Origin: Nibricoccus aquaticus
Lineage (GTDB): Bacteria > Verrucomicrobiota > Verrucomicrobiia > Opitutales > Opitutaceae
Assembly (NCBI RefSeq): GCF_002310495.1
Contig: NZ_CP023344.1
Span: forward strand, 2,993,501-3,057,500
DNA: 64,000 nucleotides
Direction of reading: 5' to 3'
In this document: piece by piece, positions 45,337 through 58,666 of the stretch
Position numbering within the stretch: position 1 is the first letter of the stretch
How the letters are laid out: each line of letters starts with the position of its first letter
Program-made: the position numbers and the translations under genes
Notes under the pieces: model-generated
Database searches by the model: none
Seen by the model: only the letters and a program-made list of their open reading frames with translations
Told to the model about the DNA's origin: nothing

Positions 45337-46407
45337 ATGAGCAACGCCATCGCCAATCCTTTTGCCCCCAAGCCCAGCGCAGGCCGTAGCGCAGAGAAAA
45401 CGCTCTTCTGGGCCTTCCGTCTCGCGACGTACTTCGTGCTGCTGTGCGGCGCGTTTGTTTTCGGCAGCATTTTTTTCAAAGGCTCGCAGACCGTTTTCCG
45501 CAGCGAGTTCCCGTTCATCAACGTGCCATTCCTCACGCAGGCACCGGAGACGCTCAACGTCTTCGAGTACAAAGGCGAAAAGCGCGAAATGGGCGCTACC
45601 GAGTTTCGCGCATTCCGTGAGAAGGAAGAGACTGCCGCGAAAGCCGCAGGGCAGCCTGCACCGCAGATCAAGATTCTGGAGAGCATCGCTTATTCGGCGG
45701 GCGGTATTTTCCCATGCATCGTCGGCACGGTGCTGCTGGTGATCGGTTCGATGAGCATCGCGCTCGTGCTGGGCGTTTCCAGTGCGATCTACCTGAGCGA
45801 GTATGCGAAGGACGGACCGGTCGTGCGCGCGATCCGGCTCTCGATCATCAATCTCGCCGGTGTGCCCTCGATTGTATTCGGCCTTTTTGGCTTCGGCATG
45901 TTCGTGAATTTCTTCGGCTGGAACACCTCGCTCATGGCGGGCTGGTTCACGCTGGCGTTTATGGTGCTGCCAGTGGTGATCACCGCGTCGGAAGAGTCGC
46001 TGAAAGCTGTGCCGAAGGGTTTCCGCGAAGGCTCGCTCGCTCTCGGTGCGACTAAGTGGCAGACGATCCGCAAGGCGGTGCTGCCATACGCACTCCCGGG
46101 AATTTTGACCTCGTCGATCCTCGGCATCGCGCGTGTCGCGGGCGAGACCGCGCCGATTATGTTCACCGCCGCCTATGTGATGAGCGACAAGCTCCCGTGG
46201 GATGTGGCGAAGGTGAGCGATTTCTTTTTCCAGGGTGTCATGGCGCTGCCGTATCACATCTACGTCGTCAGCTCCAAGATCCCGCAGAATGAGTACACCG
46301 AGCGCGTCCAGTACGGCACGGCTTTCGTTTTCCTGATGATCGTCGCGAGCATCGCGATGGCTTCGATCATGCTCCGCAACAACCTCCGCCGCCGCTACAA
46401 ATGGTGA
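45337..46407 (+). CDS. pstA: Phosphate ABC transporter permease PstA
   Basis: 356 residues, some 60 more than usual. TM1 ('[21 protein letters not shown]') is followed by an inserted periplasmic stretch (about 70-112, '[31 protein letters not shown]'). The permease core then has '[30 protein letters not shown]' and the EAA loop '[46 protein letters not shown]'. It starts 6 bp after pstC, and its last 7 bp overlap pstB. Confidence 0.95.
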
Positions 46408-47273
46408 ACGCCACGTCCAACTTTTCTACGCCTTCCATGGAACCGACTTCCGCCGCCACGCCCGCCCGACGCACGATCAACGTGCCCTCCGAGCGTTCCG
46501 CCAATCTGCCTCCCGCGAATACGCTCATCGATATCGAGCAGCTCGATTTCTATTACGGTGCGAAGCAGGCTCTCTTCGACATCAACTTGAAGCTCGACGA
46601 GAAACGCGTCACCGCGTTCATCGGGCCGTCGGGTTGCGGCAAGTCCACACTGCTGCGCTGCATCAATCGCATGAACGATCTGATCGACGGCACTGCGGTG
46701 AAGCGCGGTTCGATCAAGATCCGCGACATCAACATCCACCGCTCCGACATCGACCCCATCGAACTGCGCAAACGCGTCGGCATGGTCTTCCAGAAATCGA
46801 ATCCCTTTCCGAAATCCATCTACGAAAACATCACCTACGGTCTGCGCATCCAGGGCATCAGCAACAAGGCAAAGCTCGATGAGGTCGTAGAAAAATCCCT
46901 GCGCGGTGCCGCGCTCTGGGATGAAGTGAAGGACCGGTTGCACGAAAGCGGTCTCGGCCTTTCCGGCGGACAACAGCAGCGTCTGTGCATCGCACGCGCC
47001 ATCGCGGTCGATCCCGAAGTGCTCTTGATGGATGAACCGTGCTCGGCACTCGATCCCATCGCGACCGCCAAAGTGGAAGAGCTGATTCACGAACTGAAGA
47101 AACAGTTCACGATCATCATCGTGACGCACTCCATGCAACAGGCCGCGCGTTGCTCGGACAAGACGGCGTTTTTCTACATGGGGAAACTCATCGAGTACGC
47201 CGACACGCGCACGATCTTCATGAACCCCGCCAATGCGCAGACCGAGGCGTATGTCTCGGGACGCTTTGGCTAA
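46401..47273 (+). CDS. pstB: Phosphate ABC transporter ATP-binding protein PstB
   Basis: 290 residues. A 40-residue non-conserved N-terminal tail (Ser/Thr/Pro-rich) precedes the ATPase; ATG 46437 is an alternative start. Walker A is '[14 protein letters not shown]' (about 73-86), the signature '[15 protein letters not shown]', Walker B '[12 protein letters not shown]', and the switch '[12 protein letters not shown]'. The '[10 protein letters not shown]' after Walker A is typical of PstB. It drives phosphate import and overlaps pstA by 7 bp. Confidence 0.96.
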
Positions 47274-47320: not shown

Positions 47321-48007
47321 ATGAAACGCTTCTTCGATTCTGAACTCGAAACCTTCCGCTCACATCTGCTCCTCATGGGCGAAAAATCCATGGAGCAAGT
47401 CCGCCAGGCGCTGAAAGCCCTCGTCGAGGGCAACATCGCTCTCGCCGATCAAGTTATCGCCGCGGACGACGAGATCGACCAGCTCGAGATGAGCATCGAT
47501 GACGAAGCGATCCGCTACATGAACTTGCGCGCGCCGATCGCGACAGAGCTCCGTCTCGTGATCGTGGGCATGAAGGCGTCGCACGATCTGGAACGCGTGG
47601 GCGACGAAGCCACCAGCATCGCGAAGCGTGCGGTAAAGCTCGCCGCCGAGCCGCCGCTCAAGCCGTACGTGGACATCCCGCGCATGGCCAACATCGCGCT
47701 CGAGATGCTGCGCGATGCACTCGATTGCTTCCTCCACGGCGATGAAGCGAAGGCGATGGCGGTGGTCCGTCGCGATTCGGAAGTCGATTCGATCAACAAG
47801 CAGCTCTACCGCGAACTCACGAGCTACATGATCGAGCGTCCGCAATCGATCAGCCGCGCGCTTGAGCTGATGTTCATTTCAAAATCCATCGAGCGTATTG
47901 CCGATCACGCGACGAATATCGCGGAGGAGATGGTGTTTCTCGCGCACGCGAAAGACATCCGGCATAATGACGAGCTCAAGAAGAGCGGTGGCTCTGGGTC
48001 GATCTGA
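47321..48007 (+). CDS. phoU: Phosphate transport system regulator PhoU
   Basis: 228 residues made of two three-helix PhoU repeats. Motifs are 'FDSELETFRSHLLLMGEKSMEQVRQALKAL' at the N-terminus and the metal-binding E/D-x-x-x-D patterns 'KASHDLERVGDEATSIAKRA' and 'ISKSIERIADHATNIAEEMVFL'. PhoU links the Pst transporter to PhoR and represses the Pho regulon when phosphate is ample. It is the last gene of the pstCAB-phoU unit, 47 bp after pstB. No phoB/phoR pair is in the window. Confidence 0.95.
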   Translation: MKRFFDSELETFRSHLLLMGEKSMEQVRQALKALVEGNIALADQVIAADDEIDQLEMSIDDEAIRYMNLRAPIATELRLVIVGMKASHDLERVGDEATSIAKRAVKLAAEPPLKPYVDIPRMANIALEMLRDALDCFLHGDEAKAMAVVRRDSEVDSINKQLYRELTSYMIERPQSISRALELMFISKSIERIADHATNIAEEMVFLAHAKDIRHNDELKKSGGSGSI

Positions 48008-50902: not shown

Positions 50903-52336
50903 TCAAGCCAGTGGCAGACGCAGCTGGAAGGTCGCGCCGTTGGGGCTGCTGTGCGCGAGGGCGAGTTCGCCGCCGAGCTGGCGGGCGAGGAGGTGGGAAA
51001 TGGCGAGGCCGAGTCCGGTGCCGCCGGGGCGGGTCGAGCGGCCGGGTTCGAAGAGACGCGTCTGAATTTCTGGCGGAATGCCGGGGCCTTGATCGGCGAC
51101 GGCGAGAGTGAGAAGGCCTTCGCCCTTGATGAGGGAGACATCGATGCGGCGGCCGCGCGGAGTAGCGGCGATGGCGTTTTGGATGAGGTTGGCGGCGATG
51201 AGGCAGAGGAGACTGCTGCGGTGGTTGTCGAGCGCGTGGGAGAATTTTTCGCTGACGGCGAGTTCGACGCCTTTTTCGAGAGCGGCGGCGCGGTTGCGCC
51301 GCTGGATCGTATCGGCGATCTCGCGACCGGTGAGTTCGTACACGGCCTGGGAGCGTTCCTCGCCGAGGAGTTCGACAGCTTCCTGGATGAGCGCCTGGAG
51401 CTGCGTGGTGTAGGCGGCGGCGTGTTTCCAGGCTTCGCCTTCGCGGTCGGCGACGACGGCGCGCAGGCCGGCGACGGGGCCCTGGAGGCCGTGGATGAGG
51501 TGGCTGGTGATCTGGCCGAGGGCGGAGGCTTTGGCGGAGAGGGTGAGCTCGAAGTTGGTCCGCATGAGGCGCTCGTTGCGCTCGGCGATGGTGCGCTGGG
51601 CGCGGCGCAGGCCGAGGTGGGCGCCGGTGAGGACGAGGATGATGAGGCCGCTGCCGATGGAGAGGGTGGCGGCGGCCTGGCGGTTGACGCGCTGGTCGAT
51701 GATGGCGAGCTCGGCGGTGAGCGGGCGGGCGTCGATGTAGTAACGGGCGAAGCCGGCGAGCAGACCGATGCCGCCGCCGTTGAGCGGTAACAGGACTTCA
51801 AGTACGGGGGCGCGTGTGCCGGGGGCGAGGCCGGTGAAGTGTTCGTCGAGGGGGAAAGCCGGGTGGTAGCGGCTGATGGTATCGCCGCTGAGGAGCACCG
51901 AGAAATCCTCCCACGGGAGTTCGACGAAAGGCATCGAGGACGGGACGGTTTGCAGGGTGCGGCCCTCTTCGTCGAAGACGGCGACGGCCAACATGCCGGG
52001 CTGGCGGGCGCTTTTGAGGACGGCGGTGAGGGCGGCGACGGAGCCGGGGAGCAGGGTGGAGTTGGCGGCTTCGCTTTCGAGGAGTTGCTGGGCGGCGAAC
52101 GGGTGGAGGACGGTGGCGTCGCGCTCGATGAGTTTCTGGCGGATCTCGCCGCGCAGGTCGCCGGCGAAGCGCAGGACCATGAAGGTCAATATGGCGATGA
52201 GGAGCGCGCCGGTGGCGGCCGTGAGCAGCAGGAGACGCGCGCGGGGGAGGGCGGTAGCGGGGCGTGATGTAAGTGGGGCGGAGGCCACGGGGTGGGTGGG
52301 AGACAAAAACGATTCGCCGATGACGGGTGAGATCAT
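50903..52336 (-). CDS. Membrane sensor histidine kinase
   Basis: The ATG at 52336 gives 477 residues. TM1 ('RLLLLTAATGALLIAILTFMVL') and TM2 ('LSIGSGLIILVLTGAHLGL') flank a periplasmic sensor of about 170 residues ('LLPGSVAALTAVLKSARQPGMLAVAVFDEEGRTLQTVP'). The dimerisation/phosphorylation helix is atypical: 'ALGQITSHLIHGLQGPVAGLRAVV'. The ATPase domain has 'LIANLIQNAIAATPRG' (N box), 'VADQGPGIPPE' (G1) and 'GGTGLGLAISHLLARQLGG' (G2). The NtrC-type regulator at 55337 on the same strand, two genes upstream, is the likely partner. Confidence 0.88.
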   Translation of the reverse strand: MISPVIGESFLSPTHPVASAPLTSRPATALPRARLLLLTAATGALLIAILTFMVLRFAGDLRGEIRQKLIERDATVLHPFAAQQLLESEAANSTLLPGSVAALTAVLKSARQPGMLAVAVFDEEGRTLQTVPSSMPFVELPWEDFSVLLSGDTISRYHPAFPLDEHFTGLAPGTRAPVLEVLLPLNGGGIGLLAGFARYYIDARPLTAELAIIDQRVNRQAAATLSIGSGLIILVLTGAHLGLRRAQRTIAERNERLMRTNFELTLSAKASALGQITSHLIHGLQGPVAGLRAVVADREGEAWKHAAAYTTQLQALIQEAVELLGEERSQAVYELTGREIADTIQRRNRAAALEKGVELAVSEKFSHALDNHRSSLLCLIAANLIQNAIAATPRGRRIDVSLIKGEGLLTLAVADQGPGIPPEIQTRLFEPGRSTRPGGTGLGLAISHLLARQLGGELALAHSSPNGATFQLRLPLA

Positions 52337-52384
52337 CGGCGAAGGAAGGGGAAGATGCCAGACTGGAGCTGTGAAGGTAGGGAA

Positions 52385-52428
52385 CGCGCGACGAGGGCGG
52401 CGCGCCTCCATCGGAGCGGAGGCGCGGC
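52385..52428. repeat. REP-C copy 3
   Basis: GCGCGACGAGGGCGGCGCGC followed by CTCCATCGGAG and CGGAGGCGCGG. It nearly equals the hrpA-internal copy at 25158 and lies between the kinase and the Gly/Ser/Tyr-rich protein gene. Confidence 0.55.
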
Positions 52429-52431
52429 GGA

Positions 52432-54393
52432 TTAGGGAGGGTATTCGCCGGCGGGGAGGGAGAGGTTGAGGCGTTCGAGGGCGACTTCGAAGAGGAGGCG
52501 ACGTTGTTGCGGGGAGAGTCCCTGCTGGAGCGTGGCGATCTGGTAGTAGCGGTAGTGCTGCCAGCGTTCGCCCTGCTGGAGGTGGGCGTAGAAATCGGCG
52601 AGGAGGGTTTCGACGGATTTGCCGGAGGCGGCTTTGGAGTCGGTGGCGAAGCGGGCGACCTCGACGCGGATGGCTTCGCGTTCTTTGCCGAGATCGGCGA
52701 GGCGTTTTTCGTGGTCGCGGTTGAAGGTCTCGATGGCTTTGCGGGCGGCGGCGATCACGGCATCGGAGTTTTCGGATTTTGGGACTTCGAAGCGGAAGGT
52801 GGCGGGGCCGACGGACGGGGCGTCTTTTTTGACGAGTTTGAAGGAGTCCACGCCGTTGGCTTTGCGGACCTCATCGAGGCTGGCCTGAAGGATTTTCTGG
52901 AGGGCGGTCTTTTCCGTCTGGTAGGCGGTGATCCGCGTGCTGAGGGCGGCGGGAAACGCGGGCGGGGTGGGCGGGCCGGGGGGATTGGGGAGGAGGGCGA
53001 AGCCGGCGCGGATTTCGTCGGCGAGGGCTTCGAGGGTGTCGAAGCGGGGGGACTGTTCGCTGGCGAGGGTGCGGAGGGCGTCGGCGCGTTTCGAGGCGTG
53101 AACGCGGTCGAGCGTGTAGATGGCGTCGCGGAGTTCGGATTTGAGGGCGGATTTGTCCTTCTCGTAGGTTTCGATTTTCAAGGACAGGTCAGGCGGGAGA
53201 TCGGGCGGGAGGACGAGGCGGGAAGTCTCGGGGGAGAAGAAGAGGAGGGTTTCGTCGGGGTTGGCGGGGGCGGCGTCCTTGGGTTTGAAAGCGGCGACTT
53301 GTAGTTCCATTTCCACTTCGCGGAGGAGGCGGCGCTGTTGAGGGGAAAGGCCTTCCTGGTAAAACGCGGCGGCGCGGATGACGCGGAATTCGATGGAGAC
53401 GAGCTGTTCGCGCGGGAGGGCGAGAGTGCCCTCGCCGAGACGCCAGCGGCGGCGCTCGTTCCAGTCGCCGCTGCCGGAGAAAAGGCCGACGAGGCCACCG
53501 TGGAGGAGGTCGCCGCGGAGGTCATCGGCCTCGGCTTCGAGGCGGGAGAGGTCGCCGGCCTGGCGGGAGGCGAGGAGGTTGAGTTCGCTGGTGCGAGTCG
53601 CGGGATCGACGTCTTTGAGTTCGTCGAGGCGGGCGAGGAGTTCGGTTTGGAGACGGCTGCGCGTGGTGCGGAAAGCGTCGAGGCGCTGGAGGAGTTTTTT
53701 GGTGAGATCGGCCTGGGTGATGCGCGTGCTCAGGGGTGCGTAGAAAGGTTCGTAGAGGTAGGAGGCGAGATCCTTGGGCGCGGTGATGGACGTCTGCGCG
53801 GGAGGCCGTGGGGGGACGGGAGCGCCGAGCGGTGGTGGCGAGGGCGGGAAGAAGATGGGCGACTGGGTGTTCGCGGAAGGAACGGAGCGGTAGTCGTAGT
53901 AGGACGGATCGCGGTAGATCGAGTAGCGGTTGTGGAAGGAGGAGTAGAAGTGGCCGCCCCAGTAGTAGTAATTGCCGCCCCAGTAATAGCAGCCGCCCCA
54001 GAAAGGGTCGTAATAATAACCGCCGCGGTGGCCGCCGTAGTAGCCGCCGCTGCCGCCTCCGGTGAAACCGCCGCCACCACTATTGCCGCCGGGTGAGCTG
54101 TAGGAGCCGCCCGGGATGGGCGTGATGAAGCGACCGCCACCGCCGGAGTCGTAGTTGCCGGATGAGGACGAGCCGCCGGAATAAGAGCCACCGCCGGAAG
54201 AGGAGCTGCCGGATGAGCCAGAGGATGGCGAGGAGGGGGCGGGAGACGGGGAGCTGGAGGATGAGCTATCGGTGGGGACGATGAAGCGGTCGGCGCGGGC
54301 GAGGGTCGCGCTGGCGAGTGCGGCGAGGGTGAGCGCGACGAGAGCGAGGCGGGGCCGGGAGGAGCGGGCGGCGGGGAGAGGCGTGGCATTCAT
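52432..54393 (-). CDS. Large secreted protein, Gly/Ser/Tyr-rich N-terminus and duplicated 'GLSPQQRRLL' motif
   Basis: 653 residues, not recognised as a known family. A signal peptide ends near 'ATLARA' (residue 34). 'RFIVP' (36-40) and 'RFITP' (88-92) frame a Ser-rich stretch. Residues 95-165 are Gly/Tyr/Trp-rich ('GGYYYDPFWGGCYYWGGN'), and a Pro-rich spacer ends near 200. The rest is helical, coiled-coil-like, with two copies of a module ending 'GLSPQQRRLL-EV--E': one at residues 348-365, one at the very C-terminus (about 625-642). The Gly/Tyr/Trp part could self-assemble or bind surfaces. It lies between a histidine kinase and an outer-membrane protein on the same strand, so a cell-envelope role is likely. 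Confidence 0.7.
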   Translation of the reverse strand: MNATPLPAARSSRPRLALVALTLAALASATLARADRFIVPTDSSSSSSPSPAPSSPSSGSSGSSSSGGGSYSGGSSSSGNYDSGGGGRFITPIPGGSYSSPGGNSGGGGFTGGGSGGYYGGHRGGYYYDPFWGGCYYWGGNYYYWGGHFYSSFHNRYSIYRDPSYYDYRSVPSANTQSPIFFPPSPPPLGAPVPPRPPAQTSITAPKDLASYLYEPFYAPLSTRITQADLTKKLLQRLDAFRTTRSRLQTELLARLDELKDVDPATRTSELNLLASRQAGDLSRLEAEADDLRGDLLHGGLVGLFSGSGDWNERRRWRLGEGTLALPREQLVSIEFRVIRAAAFYQEGLSPQQRRLLREVEMELQVAAFKPKDAAPANPDETLLFFSPETSRLVLPPDLPPDLSLKIETYEKDKSALKSELRDAIYTLDRVHASKRADALRTLASEQSPRFDTLEALADEIRAGFALLPNPPGPPTPPAFPAALSTRITAYQTEKTALQKILQASLDEVRKANGVDSFKLVKKDAPSVGPATFRFEVPKSENSDAVIAAARKAIETFNRDHEKRLADLGKEREAIRVEVARFATDSKAASGKSVETLLADFYAHLQQGERWQHYRYYQIATLQQGLSPQQRRLLFEVALERLNLSLPAGEYPP

Positions 54394-54517: not shown

Positions 54518-55132
54518 TTAGTAGCGATAGACGGCGCCGAAGGTGTACACGGTGGTTTCGCTTTCGTTGAAGGCGACGGAGATGTAGCCGCCGATCTTCT
54601 CGTTGAACCAGGTGTTGAGGCCGGCGGTGTAGGTCCAGTAATGGCCGTTATCGCTGTCGAAGTATTTGTTGTAGTCGGCCTTGAGGACGAGGGCGGTCAT
54701 GCGGCCGACGGCTGCCTCGACGCCGAGTCCGGCGATGTAGAGGCCGTCATGGCTCTTGTAGGTGCGACCGCCGAAGGTGGATTCCTGCCAGGTGCCGGCG
54801 ACGCCGGCTTCGATGAAGGGCTTGAAGTATTCGAGCTCCTTGTATGCGACGAGAGTGGCGCCGAGGCGCTGGTCGCGGATGCTGAAATCGCTGAAGCGCT
54901 CGTAAGAGGCGAAGCCGTTGACGTCGAGGTTGGCGGAGATGGGGAGATTGGCGGTGCCGATAAAGCCGGTGCCGGAGCCGATGTCGGCATCATGGACGTT
55001 TTCGAGGAAGAGGCCGGCGCCGACATGGCGTTTGCCGAGGAAGCCGGGGTCCATCTGCGCGGACAAAGAGCCGGCGAGCAGGAGCGAACCAGCGGCGATG
55101 AGGAGGCGGAGCGAACGGTGGGTGGTGATCAT
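54518..55132 (-). CDS. Small outer-membrane beta-barrel protein
   Basis: The ATG at 55132 gives 204 residues with a signal peptide ending 'LLLAGSLSAQ'. The mature part is made of about eight amphipathic strands ('HVGAGLFLENVHDADIGSGTGFIGTANLPI', 'LDVNGFASYERF', 'YIAGLGVEAAVGRMTALVLKADYNKYF', 'GGYISVAFNESETTVYTFGAVYRY') and ends in aromatic Tyr, the barrel-assembly signal. It resembles OmpA/OmpW-size barrels without a peptidoglycan-binding domain. Function is unknown; it may be a structural or sensing partner of the neighbouring two-component genes. Confidence 0.8.
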   Translation of the reverse strand: MITTHRSLRLLIAAGSLLLAGSLSAQMDPGFLGKRHVGAGLFLENVHDADIGSGTGFIGTANLPISANLDVNGFASYERFSDFSIRDQRLGATLVAYKELEYFKPFIEAGVAGTWQESTFGGRTYKSHDGLYIAGLGVEAAVGRMTALVLKADYNKYFDSDNGHYWTYTAGLNTWFNEKIGGYISVAFNESETTVYTFGAVYRY

Positions 55133-55336
55133 GGGGAAAGGGGGTGCGGGGTGTTGACTGACGGGGTGTAGTGCCGAAGCGGGCACGGGGAGTATTGCGC
55201 GGATTGTGCCAGCGGGAGCGCGAATTAGTTAACGTGCTGGGGAGCGGCTGGATAAAATTGTGGGGTGTTTTATCGGGCGACGAGACACCGGGAAGAGTTG
55301 GTTGGCTGCAACCACGGGGGACGGGGAGCGGGTGCG

Positions 55337-56779
55337 TCAGGCTGGGGGCTGGTCACCAGCGGGAGGCGTGGCGGCGCTGGCGGGTTTTTCGCCGGCGAGG
55401 CGATAGCGGAGGAATTCGCGGGTGACGCCGAGGCGGCGGGCGGCGGCGGAGACGTTGCCGTTGGTTTCTCGGAGGGACTCGGCGATGAGGGCATCGGTCA
55501 CGGCGTCGAGGGTGAAGCCGGATTCGGGGAGGCGCCAGGCGGGGTTGCGCCAGCTCGTGGCGGTGGATGAAGAGGAGGACGCGGCGGCGAGGTGGGAGAA
55601 GTCGAGGGTGTCAGACGGGGTGAAGATGACGGCGCGTTCGAGTTCGTGGGCGAGTTCGCGGATGTTGCCGCGCCACGGTTGGGCGAGGAGGCGGGCTTCG
55701 GCGTCGGGCGTGAGGGTGAGCGCGGGACGGCGGTGGCGGGTGGCGAGGCGCTTGAGGAGATGGCGGGCGAGCGCGAGGAGATCCGAACCGCGTTCGCGGA
55801 GAGGGGGGAGCGCGAGGTGGAGGAGGTTGAGGCGGTGGTAGAGATCTTCGCGGAAGAGTTTCGCTTCGACCAAGTCAGCGAGCGGGCGGTTGCTGGCGGC
55901 GAGGAGGCGGGTATCGATCGCGGTTTCTTTGTTGGAACCGAGGCGGCGTATCCGGCCTTCTTCGACAGCGGTGAGAACTTTGGCCTGCGTGGCGGGAGTG
56001 AGGGCGCTGATTTCGTCGAGGAAGAGGGTGCCGCCGTCGGCGGCTTCGAAGAGGCCGAGGCGGGCGGTCTTGGCGTCGGTGAAGGCGCCGCGTTCGTGGC
56101 CGAAGAGTTCGGATTCGACGAGAGTATCGGGAAGCGCAGCGCAGTTGATGGCTATGAACGGCCGCGCGGCGCGGGGGCCGCGTTGATGAATCCAGCGGGC
56201 GAGGGCGCTTTTGCCGGTGCCGGTTTCGCCCTCGATGAGGATGGGCGGGAGATTTTTTTCGAGGCGGCGTTCGGTGGCGAGGATCCGGTCGAGCTGGGCG
56301 GTGATGGGCGCGAGGCTGTGGCCGAAAAAAAGTTCGCTCGTGTCGCCGCTGGCGGTGGTGGGGCCAGCGCGGTACTGGTCGCGGCGTTCGGACTGACGGA
56401 GGGCGCGGCAGCGGAGGAAGGCGAGGGGGAGTTCTTCGGCTTCGAAGGGTTTGGCGAGGTAGGCGCCTGCGCCGAGGCGCATGGCTTCGACGGCTTTTTT
56501 GACGCCGCCGAAGGCGGTCATGACGACGACGCCGGTGTTTTCGGAGAAGGCTTTTTCGCGGAGGAGTTCGATGCTTTCGCCGTCGGGGAGGTGGAGGTCG
56601 AGGAGTGCGAAGTCGAAGCGGAGGTCGGCGAGGAGGCGGCGGGCTTCGGCGAGGGAGGAGGCGGTGGAGATCTCGGCGCCGAGGGTGGCGAGATGGGCGG
56701 CGAGGCGTTTGCGGAGGACGGGGTCGTCTTCGAGGAGGAGGATTTCGCAGCCGGGGGGGAGGGCGGGGGCGTCGGGCAT
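55337..56779 (-). CDS. NtrC-family response regulator (receiver, AAA+, Fis-type HTH)
   Basis: 480 residues. The receiver (about 10-125) has the phospho-Asp in 'FALLDLHLPDGES' and the Lys in 'AYLAKPFEAEE'. AAA+ (about 150-380): Walker A 'IEGETGTGKSALARWIH', the sigma-54 contact loop 'ELFGHERGAFTDAKTARLGLFEAA', Walker B 'GGTLFLDEIS', and 'FREDLYHRLNLLHLALPPLRER'. The canonical GAFTGA loop reads GAFTDA. The C-terminal Fis-type HTH is 'VTDALIAESLRETNGNVSAAARRLGVTREFLRYRLAG'. It activates sigma-54 promoters after phosphorylation, probably by the histidine kinase at 50903. Confidence 0.94.
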   Translation of the reverse strand: MPDAPALPPGCEILLLEDDPVLRKRLAAHLATLGAEISTASSLAEARRLLADLRFDFALLDLHLPDGESIELLREKAFSENTGVVVMTAFGGVKKAVEAMRLGAGAYLAKPFEAEELPLAFLRCRALRQSERRDQYRAGPTTASGDTSELFFGHSLAPITAQLDRILATERRLEKNLPPILIEGETGTGKSALARWIHQRGPRAARPFIAINCAALPDTLVESELFGHERGAFTDAKTARLGLFEAADGGTLFLDEISALTPATQAKVLTAVEEGRIRRLGSNKETAIDTRLLAASNRPLADLVEAKLFREDLYHRLNLLHLALPPLRERGSDLLALARHLLKRLATRHRRPALTLTPDAEARLLAQPWRGNIRELAHELERAVIFTPSDTLDFSHLAAASSSSSTATSWRNPAWRLPESGFTLDAVTDALIAESLRETNGNVSAAARRLGVTREFLRYRLAGEKPASAATPPAGDQPPA

Positions 56780-56938: not shown

Positions 56939-58000
56939 CTAGTCGGCGAAGTGGGCGAGACGCATCAGGCTATAGCCGATGAAGCCGCAGATGGGGATGG
57001 TGAGAATCCAGGCCCAGACCATGCGGCCGACGATGCCCCATTTAACGGCGCTGAAGCGTTTGGTGGCACCTACGCCCATGATGGAGGTGGAGATGACGTG
57101 CGTCGTGGAAAGAGGGATACCGATGTGGGAGGCGACGCCGATGATGGCGGCGGCGGTGGTCTCGGCGGCGAAGCCGTGGACGGGCTGAAGTTTCACCATT
57201 TTATGGCCCATCGTCTTGATGATGCGCCAGCCGCCGGCGGCGGTGCCGGCGGCCATGGTGAGGGCGCAGAGGATCACGACCCAGAGGTGAATATCGAAGG
57301 TGGGTGTGCGCAGGAAGGAGAGCCACTCGGGGAGGTTGTCGAGTGTGCCTGCTTTGGTACCGGTGAAGAGGGCGAGGGCGATGATGCCCATGGTTTTTTG
57401 CGCGTCGTTGCTGCCGTGGCTGAAACCCATCCAGGCGGCGGAGACGAGCTGGAGTTTGCCGAAGGTTTTGTTGACGAAGCGCGGGGTGGCTTTGCGCAGG
57501 GCGGCGTAGAGGATGTACATGATCAGCGCGCCGATGATGAAGCCGGCGAGCGGTGACAGGATCATGGGCATGACGACTTTGGGCCAGAGGCCGGCGGAAG
57601 CGCCTTTGGCGTCGATGTACGACCATTTGAGCACACCCCAGTTGCCGTGAGCGGCGGCGAGAGCGGAGCCGCAGAGGCCGCCGATGAGGGCGTGGCTTGA
57701 GCTGGAGGGAAGGCCGAGCCACCAGGTGAAAATATTCCAGACGATGGCTCCCGAGAGAGCGCAAAGGACGGCGGGGATGGTGACGAAGCTGGTGTCGATC
57801 AGGCCGCCGCCGATGGTTTTGGCGACGGCGGTGCCGGCGAGGGCGCCGATCAAGTTGAAGAAGGTGGCCAGCATGATCGCCTGGCGGGGCGTCAGGACTT
57901 TGGTCGAGACGACGGTGGCGATGGAGTTGGCGGTGTCGTGGAAGCCGTTGATGTATTCAAACACCAAGGCGGCGAAGAGGACGAGCAGGAGGAGCGTCAT
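56939..58000 (-). CDS. pit: Low-affinity inorganic phosphate transporter (Pit family)
   Basis: 353 residues, two halves each with a Pit signature: 'FEYINGFHDTANSIATVVSTKVLTPRQAI' (N-terminal) and 'LVSAAWMGFSHGSNDAQKTMGIIALALF' (C-terminal GxxDxxK type). About ten hydrophobic helices are visible ('GLPSSSSHALIGGLCGSALA', 'GIPLSTTHVISTSIMGVG'). It imports metal-phosphate with H+ or Na+. It is 27 bp downstream of a DUF47 PhoU-like gene, a pairing common in bacteria, and shares a promoter with a Pho-box candidate. Confidence 0.95.
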   Translation of the reverse strand: MTLLLLVLFAALVFEYINGFHDTANSIATVVSTKVLTPRQAIMLATFFNLIGALAGTAVAKTIGGGLIDTSFVTIPAVLCALSGAIVWNIFTWWLGLPSSSSHALIGGLCGSALAAAHGNWGVLKWSYIDAKGASAGLWPKVVMPMILSPLAGFIIGALIMYILYAALRKATPRFVNKTFGKLQLVSAAWMGFSHGSNDAQKTMGIIALALFTGTKAGTLDNLPEWLSFLRTPTFDIHLWVVILCALTMAAGTAAGGWRIIKTMGHKMVKLQPVHGFAAETTAAAIIGVASHIGIPLSTTHVISTSIMGVGATKRFSAVKWGIVGRMVWAWILTIPICGFIGYSLMRLAHFAD

Positions 58001-58027: not shown

Positions 58028-58666
58028 TTACGAGTATTTGAGGACGATCTGGAAGACGACGTTACCGGCGTCGCGGCAGCGGTCGATGGACTTCTCCATC
58101 ATTTCGAGGAGGTCCTGGAGGATGACGGTTTCCTTGGCGTCGTAGGGGCCGTTGTAGAGATCCTTGATGGCGAGGAGGAGTTGTTTGTCGGCCTCGCCCT
58201 CGGCGAACTGGAGACGGGTGTTGGCTTCGCCGATCTGCTCCATCTGGGCGCCCTTGCGGAGTTGTTTGACCATGAAGACGACGGCTTCGGCGGCTTTGCC
58301 GAGGAGTTCGGCCTGGCGGACGAAGGCTTCGCGGGGGAGTTTGCCGGGATAGATGGAGATGCGTTCGACGAGTTTCTCGACGGTCTTGGGGATGCGGTAG
58401 AGAGTGTTGGAGAGGGCCTCGATGTCCTCGCGTTCGAGGGGGGTGACGAAGGTTTTGCAGAGTTCCTCGGTGATGAGGCTGGTGATTTTTTTGTCTTTGC
58501 GACGGCTTTGGATGAAGTCGTCGAGGTCGCCGGCGCTGCGGTAGGACTCGATCCGCTGGAGGTAGTTGGCGAGGAGCTTGGTGCTGGTGAGTGCTTCCTC
58601 GGCGCTGGCTTCGAGGAGGTCGTAGAACTTCTGGTCTTTGCCGAAGAGTTTCTGGAGCGAGATCAT
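58028..58666 (-). CDS. DUF47 PhoU-like phosphate transport regulator
   Basis: 212 residues, all helical, of the DUF47/YkaA type: 'KFYDLLEASAEEALTSTKLLANYL', 'KKITSLITEELCKTFVTPLEREDIEALSNTLYRIPKTVEKLVERI', 'GEADKQLLLAIKDLYNG', 'VILQDLLEMMEKSIDRCRDAGNVVFQIVLKY'. The T-P-(L/F)-(E/D)-R-E-D-I motif is diagnostic. Members accompany and regulate Pit transporters. It precedes pit by 27 bp on the same strand. Confidence 0.93.
   Translation of the reverse strand: MISLQKLFGKDQKFYDLLEASAEEALTSTKLLANYLQRIESYRSAGDLDDFIQSRRKDKKITSLITEELCKTFVTPLEREDIEALSNTLYRIPKTVEKLVERISIYPGKLPREAFVRQAELLGKAAEAVVFMVKQLRKGAQMEQIGEANTRLQFAEGEADKQLLLAIKDLYNGPYDAKETVILQDLLEMMEKSIDRCRDAGNVVFQIVLKYS

Follow-up and report, generated by a model that had tools for sequence, protein, structure and literature searches.

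A conserved family of large secreted helical proteins in the Opitutaceae, some of them encoded with a two-component system and a predicted sigma-54 promoter

What might a large secreted protein that carries the same 10-residue motif twice do in a locus that also encodes a two-component system and an outer-membrane protein? This question is raised by P0001, encoded in a 64,000-nucleotide stretch of the Nibricoccus aquaticus genome (the window), whose relevant features are collected in Table 1. Nibricoccus belongs to the Opitutaceae, a family of soil and freshwater bacteria. An initial annotation had described P0001 as a secreted protein with a duplicated GLSPQQRRLL, and this was confirmed: the motif occurs exactly twice, in a protein whose signal peptide, by eye, ends at ...LALVALTLAALASATLARA/DRF. 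In 2,000 shuffles of residues 175 to 653, exact repeats reached at most 7 residues, compared with the 10 observed. The two copies are identical in every residue and differ at five synonymous bases, so a recent DNA duplication is excluded.

Table 1. Positions in the window of P0001, its parts, neighboring genes, and predicted regulatory elements
Feature	Position	Strand	Remarks
P0001 gene	52432..54393	-	653 aa, secreted, helical; ORF plus homologs
P0001 signal peptide, ~residues 1-35	54289..54393	-	Judged by eye
P0001 Ser/Gly/Tyr/Trp-rich linker, ~residues 36-175	53869..54288	-	Not family-conserved
P0001 module 1, residues 205-375	53269..53781	-	Helical, ends in motif copy 1; profile comparison, model
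P0001 module 2, residues 395-475	52969..53211	-	Helical hairpin without motif; profile comparison, model
P0001 module 3, residues 482-645	52459..52950	-	Ends in motif copy 2; profile comparison, model
Motif copy 1, GLSPQQRRLL, residues 348-357	53323..53352	-	Caps last helix of module 1
Motif copy 2, GLSPQQRRLL, residues 625-634	52492..52521	-	In module 3
Membrane histidine kinase with periplasmic part	50903..52411	-	20 bp downstream of P0001 gene; conserved neighbor
Small outer-membrane beta-barrel protein	54518..55132	-	Likely start MITTHRSL; weak OMP_b-brl match; first gene of putative operon
Sigma-54-type -24/-12 promoter, CTGGCACAATCCGCGCAA	55195..55212	-	Precedes outer-membrane barrel gene
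Palindrome, TGGTTGCAGCCAACCA	55299..55314	-	Putative enhancer site of response regulator; 103 bp upstream of -24 element
NtrC-type sigma-54-dependent response regulator	55337..56779	-	
PiT phosphate transporter (PHO4)	56939..58000	-	Sole PiT gene of genome
DUF47 (PhoU-like) partner of PiT	58028..58666	-	
PhoU	47321..48007	+	Beside PstB (46401-47273)

A match to P0001 was present in 51 of 150 Opitutaceae genomes. A scan of genome contigs with the single sequence gave zero matches and required an alignment, and the profile search yielded 72 named loci from sequences titled Opitutaceae, Opitutia, or, more broadly, Verrucomicrobia. In order- and phylum-wide searches, full-length matches came from Opitutaceae only, and the weak matches outside this family spanned only part of the profile; as far as we searched, the protein family thus appears restricted to Opitutaceae. 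Nearly all relatives keep both copies of the motif, as GLSPAQRRLL and GLSPEQRRLL; the suggested check for the motif in other Opitutaceae was positive. P0001 itself has no match in Pfam or NCBIfam (none to PF07813 at an E value of ≤10 and none to PF13801). Nothing convincing was among the Pfam families listed for 60 members, where PF07813 (LTXXQ) and PF13801 (Metal_resist) were absent at an E value of ≤1, and profile searches of the PDB with the family found no sequence relative. The protein therefore remains unrecognized, as first annotated, in that no characterized family matches it strongly over its full length in these three databases. The literature that we searched held no account of the family or of its regulon. 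P0001 represents a real and conserved family with a well-defined regulatory setting, one that is apparently undescribed. Three of the loci (L082, L072, and L048) each contain two family genes close together.

The conservation is uneven along the protein. Residues 1 to 175 vary across the family and the helical core is well conserved. The initial annotation had taken a Gly/Tyr/Trp-rich segment in the variable part for a self-assembling or adhesive domain. From this one could argue that P0001 acts at the surface or in a matrix, self-assembling or adhering by way of its aromatic part, with the helical part as a spacer, and the signal peptide together with the aromatic, Gly-rich stretch fits this view. 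The stretch does exist, and related segments occur in L004 and L053, with shorter ones in L017 and L029. In most relatives, however, it is missing or replaced by a shorter Ser/Asn/Tyr/Pro-rich linker while the core and the regulatory context are kept, and we saw no surface-anchoring or sorting motif in P0001. A conserved domain of this kind is thus not supported, a surface role is improbable, and we rejected the adhesin reading because the aromatic part is not conserved.

We then turn to the helical core, for which two modules had been proposed. In profile-profile comparisons of the two halves of P0001, the N-terminal module had two matching regions within the C-terminal half (E values of ~1e-13 each), and the C-terminal half also matched itself. 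These matches imply three related modules instead of two, with the motif in modules 1 and 3 only, so that the claim of two motif-bearing modules holds and the module count does not. The structure prediction suggested for the repeat gave a confident AlphaFold2 model of residues 172 to 653 (pLDDT of 90.9, pTM of 0.89) that is nearly all helical and in which GLSP directly precedes the last helix of both motif modules. Searched with the full 482-residue model, fold databases returned only ordinary helical arrangements (E values of ≥0.34, Z scores of ≤6.5). Module 1 had no Foldseek match at an E value of ≤0.001. When module 1 was aligned with VIA-align, several two-helix hairpins ranked first, and CnrX was the only match judged to cover a whole domain (99 to 102 of 109 residues, rmsd of 4.0), with a Z score of 5.5 that is low for helical proteins. 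The fold characteristic of the Metal_resist family, to which CnrX belongs, is a hooked hairpin of four helices.

Searching with the halves separately, as had been proposed, linked them to each other and gave one weak external link, for module 3 and not for module 1. Module 3 (approximately residues 550 to 642) aligned to a profile built from PF13801 proteins of Opitutaceae over 89 columns, with GLSPEQ placed on LTPEQ, at a score of 32 and a probability of 58 to 62%. The match was reproducible in half-alignments, and the controls scored lower (≤13 in 30 column shuffles and ≤22.5 among 58 decoy families). Module 1 showed no link to this profile and reached 30.8 with a porin coiled-coil decoy, about the score of module 3 with PF13801; the fold evidence is therefore suggestive only. 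Given these caveats, one structural and one profile link, both weak, are suggestive of modules that are remotely of the CnrX/ZraP/CpxP/Spy type. Because the profile matches that membership would require were looked for and not obtained, assigning P0001 to PF07813 or PF13801 is unjustified.

In the CpxP/Spy proteins (PF07813, LTXXQ), which are helical and periplasmic, LTxxQ-type motifs occur twice. P0001 resembles them in being helical with two motifs, but these read LSPxQ at the helix starts and not LTxxQ, and such helix caps are common. P0001 is also much larger than CpxP/Spy proteins, lacks a PF07813 match, and is encoded with a sigma-54-dependent regulator rather than one of the OmpR type. 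Its likeness to CnrX and Metal_resist proteins consists of the whole-domain structural match of module 1 and the in-register profile match of module 3, and these two matches would also favor a metal sensor like CnrX. The conserved metal ligands of Metal_resist proteins are His, Met, and Glu. The family alignment argues against such a sensor, as no His, Cys, or Met occurs in columns that are invariant or at least 90% conserved. P0001 also stays below the thresholds of the Metal_resist family, and unlike CnrX, it has a signal peptide that looks cleavable and no membrane anchor. In the neighborhoods examined, we recognized no metal transport genes. With the ligands missing, we disfavor the metal sensor and consider it very improbable.

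The gene context is the strongest evidence for the role of P0001. As annotated, the locus is of a two-component/outer-membrane kind, with regulator, barrel, and kinase genes as neighbors. The order regulator, P0001 homolog, kinase is found in 16 named loci, and the kinase alone accompanies the homolog in 3 more. In Pfam, the kinase matches HATPase_c and none of the HisKA families. Its H-box is unusual (GQITSHLIHGLQ) and conserved in 18 homologs, and its ATPase boxes are normal. In L067 and L074, the gene between the regulator and the P0001 homolog encodes a BamE-domain/SHOCT lipoprotein in place of the outer-membrane barrel.

The genome has a sigma-54 gene, and a predicted -24/-12 element (a consensus match of at least 8 of 10 bases, including GG and GC) is present in the window and in 13 of the 16 gaps between regulator and P0001 homolog. 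In fixed upstream windows, such elements preceded 10 of 17 regulator-linked family genes; the counts were 3 of 42 for family genes elsewhere and 1 of 17 when the reverse strand was scanned. Upstream of the promoter lies a palindrome near TGGTTGC-N2-GCAACCA, which beat shuffles at a P value of ≤0.02 in 11 of 14 cases, 5 of them placed at -102/-103 from the -24 element. These P values are optimistic because the consensus was derived from the same sequences, and the loci used to discover the palindrome and the promoter overlap in part with those used to test them. Both elements are also present at a P0001 homolog in L212 (G005:C20), with no regulator or kinase match nearby.

The combination of a regulator and a membrane kinase encoded with a predicted periplasmic protein, whose gene has a predicted sigma-54 promoter, is a layout like that of ZraPSR. 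In that system, zraP and zraSR have divergent sigma-54 promoters driven by ZraR, and ZraP acts as a chaperone in the periplasm (PMC4987338); the title of a paper cited there also calls ZraP a repressor. In the Cpx system, CpxP inhibits the kinase CpxA (PMC6737893). Like ZraP with ZraS and ZraR in Enterobacteria, P0001 is a helical, secreted partner whose gene accompanies those of a kinase and an NtrC-type sigma-54 regulator. At 653 residues, it is about four times larger than E. coli ZraP and CpxP, and unlike ZraP, it has three modules, a variable linker, and no conserved metal ligand. Its gene lies between those of the regulator and the kinase on one strand, and no direct sequence similarity to ZraP is detectable.

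Because the layout resembles ZraPSR and CpxP acting on CpxA, we propose, with about even confidence, that P0001 serves an autoregulated sigma-54 envelope system as a large periplasmic accessory resembling ZraP and CpxP. On this view, three related modules of a remote CnrX/ZraP/CpxP/Spy type would form an elongated helical protein that is exported. With the kinase active, the response regulator would bind TGGTTGC-N2-GCAACCA ~103 bp upstream of the sigma-54 promoter and turn on the operon of outer-membrane protein, P0001, and kinase, as well as a small number of distant envelope genes. Periplasmic P0001 would then accumulate, and its helical modules may bind unfolded or misassembled envelope proteins, the periplasmic part of the kinase, or both. 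This binding would adjust the kinase signal as negative feedback, as with ZraP and CpxP. The family, its conserved motif, the modules, the gene order, the promoter, and the palindrome were all read from sequence; from these we infer the binding by the regulator, the periplasmic location, the chaperone or feedback action, and the signal.

Against this proposal, at least one-third of the family, including one whole clade, has no adjacent kinase or regulator, and many of these members lie in phosphate loci. This raises the alternative that P0001 is a periplasmic helper of phosphate acquisition, whose family arose in phosphate-uptake loci and whose variant with a two-component system controls or aids that uptake as well. 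In the family tree, a clade of 24 has only phosphate-type, YdcF-type, or unassigned contexts; it mostly adjoins DUF47-PiT or pst/pho genes and never a kinase, all kinase-linked members being on the other side. Context labels change far fewer times on the tree than in shuffles. Members of the other clade, among them those of the window and L056, also lie in phosphate loci, and PiT, DUF47, PstS, PhoU, or a close PstB is found near 25 of the 72 named loci. In relatives, the family gene often lies directly downstream of PiT. In this genome, which has one stand-alone PhoU gene and one longer open reading frame with PhoU domains, the single PiT gene and the stand-alone PhoU gene both lie within ~6 kb of P0001. 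A weak PHO box was seen upstream of 4 of 11 pst-linked family genes (1.0 expected), but no PHO-box-like enrichment was found upstream of the PiT-linked ones. None of the regulon sites found lies ahead of phosphate genes; they are followed by peptidases, TonB2-type operons, and secreted propeller proteins. Taking both sides together, we consider the phosphate helper possible but somewhat unlikely.

The candidate regulon of the envelope system is small, and independent support for its sites was obtained from whole genomes. Perfect GGTTGCNNNCAACC sites occur only twice in the genome (4.73 Mb); the second, at G000:C1:1152800, is followed 103 bp downstream by a sigma-54 element and then by two secreted S9 peptidases. 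The palindrome-plus-TGGCAY pattern occurred 28 times across the 150 genomes and its reversed control 18 times, so many of the single sites are due to chance. In the regions fetched, sites with a spacing of 101 to 103 bp also have the -12 GC. The apparent targets at these sites are P0001-family genes, TonB2-type operons, a secreted protein of no recognized type, and two secreted propeller proteins. In the relatives, the TonB2-type operons contain DUF3450, ExbB-like, ExbB, ExbD, TonB-like, and TPR-like genes (named by eye), and Vibrio TonB2 has the same layout as these DUF3450/ExbB/ExbD/TonB-like operons (PMC6957404).

A sigma-54 regulator and kinase paired with an upstream motif and a -24/-12 site are also known from the PrsK/PrsR PEP-CTERM system, which involves exported proteins (Haft et al. 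2006, PMC1569441). The spacing of motif and promoter differs, with a mean spacer of ~63 nt there (PMC1569441) compared with ~87 in the P0001 system. Membership in a PEP-CTERM Prs regulon was rejected, as the regulator scored 278.3 bits against the PrsR cutoff of 502.6 and the target in L207 has no PEP-CTERM tail.

On a wider reading, these elements would form an Opitutaceae-specific circuit of envelope homeostasis, in which the state of the envelope is linked to TonB energization, secreted proteolysis, and phosphate uptake through a sigma-54 two-component system that includes a Spy-like periplasmic cosensor of three modules; we regard this as unlikely. If the modules are Spy-like, a small chaperone or feedback fold would have expanded into a large multimodule protein. 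The P0001 family brings with it a candidate binding site, a promoter, and a short target list, which allow direct tests of the signal that a conserved verrucomicrobial regulator responds to and of the role it has.

Two further kinds of protein were observed near the target regions. The same promoter type appears also to serve the genes of related secreted proteins of ~370 to 418 residues, one in L206 (1560-2813; no Pfam match) and one that closes the TonB2-type operon in L211. Just upstream of the second sigma-54 target region, L177:4070-5359 (G000:C1, ~1150069-1151358) encodes a helical-looking protein of 429 residues that has no Pfam match; it contains LTPEQYSEYL-like motifs and may represent another Spy-like family.
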